Below, in pieces: positions 317 to 4,520 of a stretch of DNA of 39,973 nucleotides (position 1 is the first letter of the stretch; each line of letters begins with the position of its first letter). A program made the position numbers and the translations under genes. The stretch lies in the NCBI GenBank assembly GCA_017446685.1, contig JAFSQI010000071.1:1-39973 (forward strand), read 5' to 3'. This DNA comes from Butyrivibrio sp. Its GTDB lineage: Bacteria; Bacillota; Clostridia; Lachnospirales; Lachnospiraceae. The notes under the pieces were generated by a model. It saw nothing but the letters and a program-made list of their open reading frames with translations. It searched no databases and was not told where the DNA came from.

Positions 317-1180
317 TCACATTAAGTCCTGCATAGCGCAGTCATCCATATCATCGAAATCCTGGTTCTCTCCAACCATTCCCCAGATGAATGTGTAAGC
401 CTGTGTGCCACATCCTGAGTGGATTGACCAGCTAGGGCTGATAACAGCCTGCTCATTTCTCATGATGATGTGTCTTGTCTCTGTAGGCTCACCCATGAAG
501 TGCATAACCATTGCATCCTCTGGAATATCGAAGTACAGATAAACTTCCATTCTACGGTCATGTGTGTGGCAAGGCATTGTGTTCCATACGCTGCCTGGCT
601 TAAGCTCTGTCATACCCATCTCAAGCTGACATGTCTCAACCTGACCTGGAAGGATGTACTTGTTGATAACTCTGTGGTTAGCTCCCTCAAGACTTCCAAG
701 CTCCTTCTTGTTCTCATCCTTGATGATAACAACGTCCTCAGAAGGTGTTCCCTCTCTCTTAATAAGAACTGTAGGATATGTCTTGTGTGCTGGAGCACTG
801 TTAATATAGAATTTAGCAGGCTTAGCTGCATCTACGCTGGCAAAAGAGATATCTTTTGCTCCCATTCCGATGTACATTCCCTGCTTGTAATCTACGTCAT
901 ACTTCTTGCCATCAATTGTGATGACACCTGCGCCACCGATATTGATAACGCCCATCTCTCTTCTCTGAAGGAAATACTCAGCTCTGAGCTCGTCTCCTGC
1001 TGTAAGCTTGAGCTCCTTCTGAACTGGTACTGCTGATCCAGTGATGATTCTGTCGATATGGCTATAAACTAGCTTGATATCATCTGGCTGGAAAAGATCA
1101 TCGATGAGAAATTCCTCTCTAAGTCTCTTGGTATCGTAGTACTTCTCATCTCTTGGTGAACATGCGGTTCTAAGTTCCAT
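317..1180 (-). CDS. kduI: 5-dehydro-4-deoxy-D-glucuronate isomerase, copy 1
   Basis: This cupin-type isomerase converts 5-keto-4-deoxyuronate, the product of unsaturated uronates from pectin or glycosaminoglycan lyases, to 2,5-diketo-3-deoxygluconate in the cytoplasm. The 287-aa length is close to that of the KduI family. The zinc-site motif CHTHDRRMEVYLYF is present, and the third histidine falls in SWSIHSG, which gives the expected His, His, Glu, His set. AAAGGAGAGG lies just before the ATG. The protein differs from copy 2 (3657-4520) at only about 13 of 287 positions, although many synonymous codons differ. This copy stands alone: it has its own promoter (1316-1344), faces away from copy 2 and is not followed by kduD. 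Both copies appear intact. Whether they differ in regulation or substrate cannot be told from the sequence. Confidence 0.95.
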   Translation of the reverse strand: MELRTACSPRDEKYYDTKRLREEFLIDDLFQPDDIKLVYSHIDRIITGSAVPVQKELKLTAGDELRAEYFLQRREMGVINIGGAGVITIDGKKYDVDYKQGMYIGMGAKDISFASVDAAKPAKFYINSAPAHKTYPTVLIKREGTPSEDVVIIKDENKKELGSLEGANHRVINKYILPGQVETCQLEMGMTELKPGSVWNTMPCHTHDRRMEVYLYFDIPEDAMVMHFMGEPTETRHIIMRNEQAVISPSWSIHSGCGTQAYTFIWGMVGENQDFDDMDDCAMQDLM

Positions 1181-2400: not shown

Positions 2401-2695
2401 TTAGCCGCATTTTGGCAAACCATGTCAATGCGGCTAATGGAATTCAGGCACGCTTCATCATTCTATTAGCCGCATATTAACCCATCCCTCTTTTGCGGCT
2501 AATTCAATTGTCTTCAAATTTTTAAGTAATTAGCCGCAAAAAGAAATTTATATGTTTTTCGGCTAATCATCAGGCAAAGCACATTTTCTTTTCATTAGCC
2601 GCATTTGACATATAAGCATGTTTGCGGCTCACCATATAAGAATTTCCCCCTTTTTCCATTAGCCGCATCCAGACATTTCCCTCTCCTTCGGCTAA
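2401..2695. repeat. Array of five TTAGCCGCA-N19-TGCGGCTAA units
   Basis: Five 37-bp units lie at 2401-2437, 2466-2502, 2530-2566, 2595-2631 and 2659-2695. The left arm TTAGCCGCA is identical in all five. The right arm is TGCGGCTAA in units 1 and 2, TTCGGCTAA in 3 and 5, and TGCGGCTCA in 4. Every unit has a 19-bp interior with no obvious conservation. The gaps between units are 28, 27, 28 and 27 bp, also not conserved. Start-to-start distances are 65, 64, 65 and 64. The array sits between the promoters of the membrane/Xre operon (leftward) and rnpB (rightward). I do not recognise it as a known repeat class. Confidence 0.9.
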
Positions 2696-2808: not shown

Positions 2809-2833
2809 TCTTATTATAAGAAAAGAATATTTT

Positions 2834-3308
2834 GAGTAGGACAGATGATCGCTGCCATGCAAACGAAAGGGCATGGGAGAGGAAAGTCCGGGCTTCGCAG
2901 GGCAGGATGCCAGATAACGTCTGGTGGAGGTGACTCCCAGGATAGTGCAACAGAAATATACCGCGTCACTAATGAGGTGGGCGACTATGGTATGTTGTGA
3001 CATCTTTACGTTTACGTGAATGATGTCACAGCATACCATAGGCATGCGGCGAGTGCCGCGTAACGAGGAAAGCTTGCTTTCCAAGTGACCGCCCTATGCT
3101 CCTTTTGACGTAAGGGTGGAAAGGCAGTGTAAGAGACTACCGTGCTGGTGGTAACATCAGTAGCCATGTAAACCCCATCCGAAGCAAGACCGAACAGAGA
3201 GCCATGAATCGGCCCGATTCGCTCTCAGGTGGGTCGCTTGAGGCTGTCGGCAACGGCAGTCCTAGATAGATGATCATCCAAGACATAACCCGGCTTACCG
3301 TTCTACTC
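2834..3308 (+). ncRNA. rnpB: RNase P RNA (class A-like)
   Basis: This is the catalytic RNA of RNase P, which removes 5' leaders from tRNA precursors. Universal core pieces are visible in order: GAGGAAAGTCCGGGCT near 2880, AGTGCAACAGAAATATACCG near 2945, GGGTGGAAAGGCAGTGTAAG near 3113, and AACCCGGCTTAC near 3287. The ends pair as P1, GAGTAG (2834-2839) with CTACTC (3303-3308), which sets the boundaries. A long P12-like arm lies at 2985-3041. The GCTTGAGGCTGTCGGCAACG part and the overall layout fit class A, the ancestral type, rather than the Bacillus type. Reading frames across this stretch on the minus strand are spurious. Confidence 0.95.
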
Positions 3309-3417
3309 ATTTTTTCTATTTTCATTTGCAGGTTCTCTGTATTTTTCCCTTTTTCAGTGATATATTACAATGTTACAAATGCACAAAAGAGAGAAGACAT
3401 GATAAAAATGGTATGTT

Positions 3418-3656: not shown

Positions 3657-4520
3657 ATGGAACTTAGAACAGCATGTTCACCAAAAGACGAAAAATATTA
3701 TGACACCAAGAGACTCAGAGAGGAATTTCTCATCGATGATCTCTTTAAGCCGGATGATATCAAACTGGTTTACAGTCATATTGACAGAATTATTACAGGT
3801 TCTGCAGTACCTGTAAATAAAGAGCTGGTTCTTACTGCAGGTGATGAACTCAGAGCAGAATACTTCCTTCAGAGAAGGGAGATGGGAGTTATCAATATCG
3901 GAGGAGCCGGAGTTATTACAATAGACGGCAAGAAATATGATGTAGATTACAAGCAGGGAATGTACATCGGAATGGGTTCAAAGGATATCTCTTTTGCAAG
4001 CAAGGATTCTTCAAAGCCTGCAAAGTTCTACATCAACAGCGCACCTGCGCACAAGACATATCCTACAGTTCTTATCAAGAGAGAGGGTACACCTTCTGAT
4101 GACGTTGTAATCATCAAGGATGAGAACAAGAAAGAGCTCGGATGTCTTGAGCAGGCTAATCACAGAGTAATCAACAAGTATATTCTTCCCGGTCAGGTTG
4201 AGACCTGCCAGCTTGAAATGGGTATGACAGAGCTCAAACCTGGCAGCGTATGGAATACAATGCCTTGTCACACACATGACCGCAGAATGGAAGTATATCT
4301 TTATTTTGATATTCCTGAAGATGCTTTGGTTATGCATTTCATGGGAGAACCTACAGAGACAAGACATATCATTATGAGAAATGAACAGGCAGTTATCAGC
4401 CCAAGCTGGTCTATCCATTCAGGATGCGGCACACAGGCTTACACATTCATCTGGGGAATGGTTGGAGAAAATCAGGATTTCGATGACATGGATGACTGCG
4501 CAATGCAGGATTTAAAGTAA
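3657..4520 (+). CDS. kduI: 5-dehydro-4-deoxy-D-glucuronate isomerase, copy 2
   Basis: This has the same function as copy 1: isomerisation of 5-keto-4-deoxyuronate to 2,5-diketo-3-deoxygluconate. It has 287 aa with the zinc-binding CHTHDRRMEVYLYF motif and SWSIHSG. AAAGGAGAT lies 6 bases before the ATG. It is the first gene of the uronate operon, and kduD follows after 38 bases. Differences from copy 1 are few and mostly on surface-type positions (for example R10K, Q31K, Q54N, K58V, V115K, M224L and the last residue). Because it is in the operon, this is probably the main copy, and the lone divergent copy may add dose or respond to other conditions. Confidence 0.96.
   Translation: MELRTACSPKDEKYYDTKRLREEFLIDDLFKPDDIKLVYSHIDRIITGSAVPVNKELVLTAGDELRAEYFLQRREMGVINIGGAGVITIDGKKYDVDYKQGMYIGMGSKDISFASKDSSKPAKFYINSAPAHKTYPTVLIKREGTPSDDVVIIKDENKKELGCLEQANHRVINKYILPGQVETCQLEMGMTELKPGSVWNTMPCHTHDRRMEVYLYFDIPEDALVMHFMGEPTETRHIIMRNEQAVISPSWSIHSGCGTQAYTFIWGMVGENQDFDDMDDCAMQDLK

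Follow-up and report, generated by a model that had tools for sequence, protein, structure and literature searches.

Helically phased arrays of inverted half-sites in Butyrivibrio and their association with an orphan PD-(D/E)XK nuclease-like gene family

Introduction

The BIMEs of Escherichia coli are alternating inverted repeats that lie between genes, often near gene 3' ends, and are built of REP palindromes with conserved bodies. CIRCE, the operator of HrcA, has the form TTAGCACTC-N9-GAGTGCTAA. In REPIN-RAYT systems, as described in PMC3116915, short inverted-repeat units are intergenic, dispersed and family-specific, cluster by the gene of a cognate enzyme, occur as several families per genome and may also stand in tandem; compensatory changes are common in their hairpins (PMC3116915).

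Here we analyse an array of alternating 9-bp half-sites upstream of rnpB in the window, by which we mean the whole 39,973-nucleotide stretch of Butyrivibrio sp. DNA under study, together with its relatives elsewhere. As in REPIN-RAYT systems, arrays lie beside a cognate gene and elsewhere in the genome for several, though not all, arm families. In contrast to those systems, the units keep their phase on the double helix through many tandem copies, the gaps are unconserved between most units of the family with TTAGCC arms, and the enzyme is PD-(D/E)XK-like rather than an HUH/Y1 transposase; because of the enzyme, we do not file the arrays there despite the similar genomic habit. A first-pass annotation had set the array apart from REP/BIME elements and from CRISPR. 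The former distinction is justified in that, unlike in BIMEs, the 7-9-bp arms alone are conserved in most arrays, the spacing is quantised and the associated gene differs, but the genomic habit proved REP-like after all (intergenic position, solo copies, a cognate gene). The latter is borne out: although 37 bp followed by 27 or 28 bp resembles a CRISPR repeat and spacer in length, the interior 19 bp of the unit are unconserved, so that there is no long conserved repeat, and other array families have periods of about 42 to 86 bp. A phage or plasmid origin of the gaps was rejected, as comparison of the array with both collections gave short matches at chance level (best E 0.3). The array shares with CIRCE 9-bp inverted arms that start with TTAGC, but HrcA was likewise rejected because the gap is 19 and not 9 bp, the rest of the arm differs from the CIRCE consensus and sister families have unrelated arms. 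We recognised no description of the arrays or of the gene among the matches listed in the open-access literature; on this search and on the failed assignments to known systems, we count the arrays as a new kind.

Results

Layout and surroundings of the array in the window

The array occupies positions 2401-2695 and consists, exactly as first annotated, of ten alternating 9-bp half-sites in five units of the form TTAGCCGCA-N19-TGCGGCTAA. Its parts are listed below, with their state in the orthologous array of Butyrivibrio sp. RGIG2449 (genome G271).

Unit 1: 2401..2437, no strand, TTAGCCGCA-N19-TGCGGCTAA; conserved in G271 (L013/L059)
Linker 1: 2438..2465, no strand, 28 bp; retained in G271
Unit 2: 2466..2502, no strand, TTAGCCGCA-N19-TGCGGCTAA; absent in G271 together with units 3-4
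Linker 2: 2503..2529, no strand, 27 bp
Unit 3: 2530..2566, no strand, right arm TTCGGCTAA; absent in G271
Linker 3: 2567..2594, no strand, 28 bp
Unit 4: 2595..2631, no strand, right arm TGCGGCTCA; absent in G271
Linker 4: 2632..2658, no strand, 27 bp
Unit 5: 2659..2695, no strand, right arm TTCGGCTAA; conserved in G271
rnpB: 2833-3313, right of the array

The half-sites start at 2401, 2429, 2466, 2494, 2530, 2558, 2595, 2623, 2659 and 2687, and their orientation alternates. The inner gap is 19 bp in all five units, and linkers of 28, 27, 28 and 27 bp place successive unit starts 65, 64, 65 and 64 bp apart. The left arm is invariant (TTAGCCGCA in 5/5) and the right arm carries a single-base change in three units (TTCGGCTAA twice, TGCGGCTCA once), as had been reported, and the gap sequences are indeed unconserved, their pairwise identity being no better than that of shuffled sequences (p 0.23 for the inner gaps, 0.29 for the linkers). 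With up to one mismatch, the 9-mer occurs 13 times in the window, ten times inside the array (100 shuffles: mean 5.6, maximum 11). A generic, sequence-blind detector, which requires two units with common inverted arms, found the array as the sole place in the 40 kb and nothing in 40 shuffles.

The array was said to lie between divergent promoters. TTGACA hexamers do stand on the minus strand 46 bp to its left and on the plus strand 86 bp to its right. Hexamers of this kind, however, are only about twice as frequent as expected by chance (6 against a shuffle mean of 3.0). To the left lie genes for a 63-aa HTH protein and a hydrophobic 175-aa protein. This gene pair (1501-2357), located between the array and kduI, is absent in G271; as the flank beyond it is 99.7% identical, the pair was recently gained or lost. 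Genes of the kduI type flank the rnpB region (317-1180, minus strand; 3657-4520, plus strand). The first matches Pfam KduI, and the second lies in a region whose 86% identity over 875 bp with that of kduI in G271 makes a duplication probable. A Clostridiales-1 RNA (RF01699) lies at 151-316 on the minus strand (82.7 bits).

Related arrays and orthologous loci in Butyrivibrio

The array had been regarded as a feature of a single locus. Its architecture is as exact as was supposed, but the array belongs instead to a dispersed family that is linked to an orphan nuclease-like gene. Allowing two mismatches, we found the pattern in 6 of the 79 genomes of the genus, with 32 matches in G271 and 14 in B. 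proteoclasticus B316 (G261), and a reversed control pattern gave at most one match per genome across the genus; the window array is neither chance nor local. These matches form arrays of 2 to 9 units whose starts are mostly 64-65 bp apart, and 53-55 bp apart in L057 and L098. The linkers of 27 or 28 bp, described as fixed, are therefore present in the window and not universal, since linkers of 16-18 bp also occur. Spacings of 74-76 and 85-86 bp were also seen at unchanged unit length, each about one helical turn away. Beyond the genus, a search with the exact arms matched one of 200 family genomes, namely the window's own. In a collection of bacterial contigs, six of the ten stretches with exact arms came from Butyrivibrio sp. 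RGIG2449; the other four and two viral contigs held one unit and no array, L041 starting at the unit, so that its right side alone was seen. Samples of 100 kb from G241, G254 and G218 held no array.

A comparison between strains, suggested in the first-pass annotation as a check for change by whole units, gave such a change at the rnpB locus, where the G271 array corresponds to units 1 and 5; three whole repeats (193 bp) are missing, with the junction inside a left arm, which indicates that arrays gain or lose whole units. Three of the four TTAGCC arrays of G261 share their intergenic place with G271 arrays. At two of these places (L054/L062 and L056/L060), flanking pieces align at 72-95% and the arrays do not align, yet the inner gap and the spacing of the units are retained, as are most arms, with a few decayed ones in L060 and L062; the third pair still aligns, and growth by tandem copying is visible in it. 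Decay of the motif at orthologous loci had been named as grounds for regarding the array as a chance local expansion; what we found is that arms and spacing mostly persist at two of the three loci while the gaps diverge. In a comparison of G200 with G230, 22 of 378 arm sites had changed, against 131 of 1006 sites in gaps and linkers (p 7e-5), a contrast that falls to 5/306 against 30/808 and is not significant (p 0.08) without one strongly diverged array pair.

Two further observations concern individual arrays. In the array 3' of the nuclease-like gene at L068:6349-6619 and L104:4492-4840, about half of the gap and linker sites differ between G200 and G230, although the gene and flanks are 91-95% identical. 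Two similar TTAGCC arrays lie 4.9 kb apart on contig C64 of G271 (L098/L207), each adjoining a similar open reading frame (319 and 268 aa), apparently as a segmental duplication that includes the array.

Unit length and helical phasing of unit spacing

Among 66 collected units, the inner gap was 19 bp in 57 and 18 or 20 bp in the rest. Across many arm families, unit length is not stepped by helical turns (35-39 bp in 435 of 475 units). The spacing of the units is: values fall at 41-44, 50-55, 61-66, 71-76 and 82-86 bp, start-to-start distances cluster near 43, 52, 64, 75 and 85 bp, and no spacing was found at 56-60, 67-70, 77-81 or 87-91 bp, with outlying values of 25 (three times), 31, 33, 47 (twice) and 48 bp. 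Spacings of 38-100 bp were condensed into 54 distance clusters, which represent 32 groups; their period is 10.65 bp (R 0.74), and none of 5000 uniform or jittered nulls reached the observed value. The groups were set by hand, as four merged families with every other locus its own group, and a few may be unrelated repeats.

Changes within the arms were compared in a set of 57 units picked by similarity to the consensus. Arm position 8 (C or A) varies independently on each side (30 C/C, 16 C/A, 8 A/C, 3 A/A), and position 2 changes on both sides together in 5 of the 57. When positions 2-3 were left free, 48 of 51 forward matches from nine genomes had mutually matching arms, including TCC/GGA, TCG/CGA and TGG/CCA, a result that would be expected from a hairpin and from a species-specific half-site alike. 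The preference of the first-pass annotation for protein binding to DNA over RNA hairpins is supported in this comparison, because position 8 is uncoupled and spacing in helical steps fits double-stranded DNA bound in phase better than RNA. Cooperative binding of a protein dimer along DNA would likewise call for a rigid two-arm unit repeated in helical phase.

An orphan nuclease-like gene beside the arrays

A search for other arms of like architecture yielded a TACTG pattern with matches in 15 of 79 genomes (control pattern: 2). These form arrays in several genomes, some of them in pairs that flank a gene whose protein product has about 270 residues. The C-terminal part of this protein is PD-(D/E)XK-like, matching in PADLOC the end of PDC-S68 proteins (E 1e-24 to 1e-27 in three proteins). 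R159-S160-K161-S162-E163, P192-D193-F194 and E208-H209 (RSKSE...PDF...EHxG) are invariant in 18 sequences. From its conserved acidic motifs and the domain-level profile match, the gene is predicted to encode a member of the PD-(D/E)XK nuclease superfamily. Pfam gave no convincing match and no transposase for 18 members (best E 0.0012), NCBIfam gave no match for four members, and sequence searches of the PDB gave nothing significant (best E 0.3). Viral contigs and plasmids encode long ATPase- or helicase-like proteins that end in similar domains; unlike these and the PDC-S68 candidate defence proteins, with which it shares its C-terminal domain, the protein described here is about 270 aa long, has its own N-terminal region and has no ATPase part. 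Profile matches occur in 70 of the 79 genus genomes at E 0.001, with up to 12 per genome, and in 121 of 397 sampled family genomes at E 1e-20, some of which may be fusions with the domain alone in common. The dN/dS of the gene is 0.08-0.10 in three pairs, indicating purifying selection. In four genomes (L193, L195, L200, L201), the nuclease-like gene of the TACTG clade is followed by a gene whose product contains MKIQQNT near its start.

Arrays were detected at 21 of the 30 best-scoring gene loci of the genus (0/30 shuffled copies) and at 20 of 30 further loci (0/150 shuffled copies), of which 28 are from other genera, one is from the window's genome and one from a phage record. Twenty additional genus loci, hand-picked from the listing of profile matches (L299 holds the gene of L291), gave 12, one of them (L308) doubtful, against 0/20 shuffled copies. 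At control loci, drawn from the genus only, the detector found arrays at 5 of 30 flgM loci, 1 of 28 rnpB loci (omitting the window's own, L003, and its G271 orthologue, L013) and 14 of 200 tiles, the last count retaining unrelated repeats. For the first 60 gene loci, the association gives Fisher values of 5e-11 and 2e-21, with relatedness ignored. No array was found by the detector at 27 of the 80 gene loci. The array lies 5' of the gene at 19 of the 20 loci with a defined arm and on both sides at five, two such pairs being close relatives; the arm families in this count were named by hand, and L226 then yielded no unit.

One repeat that passes the detector, AAATGAGC of G230, which is among the tile matches, was rejected as a family member because its interior is conserved. 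It is a different repeat, dispersed around a conserved body and with double copies 84 bp apart (L141:14414, L142:2520, L142:9406). At L194 (G261 C1:2366453-2369368), two like-oriented TACTG arrays flank open reading frames that resemble a permease and a NUDIX protein, not the nuclease-like gene.

Arm sequence, gene phylogeny and solo arrays

Closely related genes have arms in common, namely TACTG, TTAGCC, GCACCG, TACGGTT or GACACGC, and arms resembling TTAGCC accompany a related gene from another genus (L260). L255 departs from this pattern, combining a TACTG-like arm with a gene far from the TACTG clade. Similarity of protein and arm was correlated in a Mantel test (0/2000 permutations, 41 genes), and after dereplication the observed value was reached by 31/2000 permutations at 60% identity (27 genes) and 57/2000 at 45% (16 genes), which is weak support. 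L231, L236 and L237 are absent from the gene tree, as the motif filter found no gene in them.

Solo arrays, lying away from the gene, have a gene with matching arms in the same genome for TTAGCC and TACCTGC in G200, TGTGCC/TGAGCC in G265, TACTG in G252 and TTAGCC and TACTG in G261. Among the gene copies compared, no cognate was found for the solo arms TGCATCTA (G271), ATGCCTAA (G230) and GGGAACTT (G265). In G271, the TGCATCTA family, or one similar to it, has a period of 61-63 bp and occurs at L058:1183 and L098:12053.

A gene scoring above 200 bits against the TTAGCC gene of B316, a threshold chosen after the scores were seen, is present in 5 of the 6 genomes with the pattern and in 4 of the 73 others. 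The G271 gene above this threshold has other arms, and the true TTAGCC orthologue of G271 is broken in two frames. The window array is a solo copy of the family: its genome has four copies of the gene, of which the two compared (L258, L300) have other arms, and no gene of the TTAGCC clade was found in it, the best match to the B316 TTAGCC gene being 33% identical. As the assembly is 89% complete, the cognate gene may be missing from it or lost.

Dispersal of arrays

Copies of TACTG arrays at different places of one genome (15 pairs in G252, G249 and G261, with L196 left out) align for lengths of up to about 304 bp. In 14 pairs, the alignment ends inside the array or within 28 bp beyond the outer arms. 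The exception is a pair of arrays in L193, whose alignment extends about 130 bp further on one side. At the flgM locus, G271 and G261 carry an array, and G238, G277 and G213 lack it; about 60 and 110 bp take its place in the first two of these, and some 670 bp of different sequence in the third. The arrays compared do not have sharp boundaries, and neither target-site duplication nor excision was seen at them.

Discussion

In our judgement, the window array is very probably a member of this family and a phased array bound on double-stranded DNA. The fixed size of the 37-bp unit and its conserved arms suggest two facing half-sites that together would offer a single protein dimer a rigid site on double-stranded DNA. 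Given the observed period of 10.65 bp, successive units would lie on about the same face of the helix, so that the dimers could touch and coat the array cooperatively. The most likely binder is the orphan PD-(D/E)XK nuclease-like protein encoded beside many arrays; both the adjacency of gene and array and the correlation of arms with gene phylogeny point to it, and we regard its role as probable. The arrays may have spread within genomes as REPIN-like passengers of the gene, perhaps through cutting and repair at the arrays, and the solo copies, including that upstream of rnpB, would be left from this process. For this account as a whole, in which phased arrays are bound by the nuclease-like protein and spread as passengers of its gene, our confidence is less firm, though we incline towards it.

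A tentative extension, which we would put somewhat below an even chance, is that the arrays are an undescribed class of selfish repeat in Lachnospiraceae, in which one type of PD-(D/E)XK nuclease-like protein, with many paralogues that each have their own half-site, would assemble cooperatively on phased arrays and propagate them, as a counterpart of REPIN-RAYT with an unrelated fold and acting on double-stranded instead of single-stranded DNA. Against a purely selfish pair, the arrays of G271 are in good order although its TTAGCC orthologue is broken, a state that such a pair does not require, and a regulatory role in the host would also fit the finding that arms and spacing are conserved across deep divergence.

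The main rival, compatible with binding, is that the arrays are operators through which the nuclease-like protein, or another repressor, autoregulates its own gene, the solo arrays being a regulon or serving local DNA shaping, and regulation selecting arms and spacing. The position of the array 5' of the gene at nearly all loci with a defined arm, the persistence of spacing and most arms at orthologous loci and the slower change of arms than of gaps and linkers between G200 and G230 would all follow from this. However, that last contrast weakens without one divergent array pair, solo arrays adjoin unrelated genes, several of them near gene 3' ends or between convergent genes and not at promoters (L053, L057, L063), their presence is patchy among relatives, and whole arrays of about 304 bp are dispersed as copies. 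We therefore consider operators unlikely as the full explanation, but the strongest of the alternatives.

A defence or toxin-like system, in which the nuclease is restrained or aimed by the arrays as self-marks or decoys and cuts invading DNA, appears improbable. The match of the C-terminal domain to the end of PDC-S68, the similar domains that end long ATPase- and helicase-like proteins in viral contigs and plasmids, and the several paralogues with different arms in one genome agree with such a function; yet the PDC systems are candidates only in PADLOC, arrays also occur far from the gene, and at the loci viewed, in an unsystematic inspection, no constant partner gene was noticed beside it.

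Still less probable, and in our estimate a slim chance, is an element at the RNA level, that is, tandem transcribed hairpins for transcript stability, processing or guides. A 321-nt region with the window array gives better folds than shuffled sequence for either strand (z -7.9 and -5.3), as any palindromic array must. Besides the coupling of arm position 2 in a few units and the agreement of arms at free positions 2-3, which a species-specific half-site would give likewise, pairing was scored in 42 aligned units of 46 non-redundant ones; the four omitted are one that repeats window unit 1 and three whose right arms are poor, a choice that favours conservation. Of 500 shuffles, 45 reached the observed percentage paired, 25 the number of pair types and 28 the covariation score, but 102 and 210 reached the two counts of double changes, in each case with relatedness ignored. 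Moreover, arm position 8 shows no covariation, the unit spacing follows the DNA helical repeat, which single-stranded linkers do not need, and there is no Rfam match over the window array at gathering score. Neutral local tandem duplication starting from a palindrome can be practically dismissed, for although near-identical tandem copies (L055 and others) show that arrays can grow by duplication, most arms and the spacing survive in older arrays whose gaps have ceased to align, the spacing is quantised over 32 groups, and the arrays are tied to one gene family.

The reading that we prefer to these alternatives, phased arrays bound by the nuclease-like protein, links a common uncharacterised gene family with helix-quantised intergenic repeats in a pair open to experiment. 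With their ties to gene clades, the numerous arm families constitute a natural data set on how DNA-binding proteins and their half-sites change together. If selfish, the pair would represent a new class of bacterial repeat-enzyme system; if regulatory, the arrays would be an unusual cooperative operator with built-in helical phasing.
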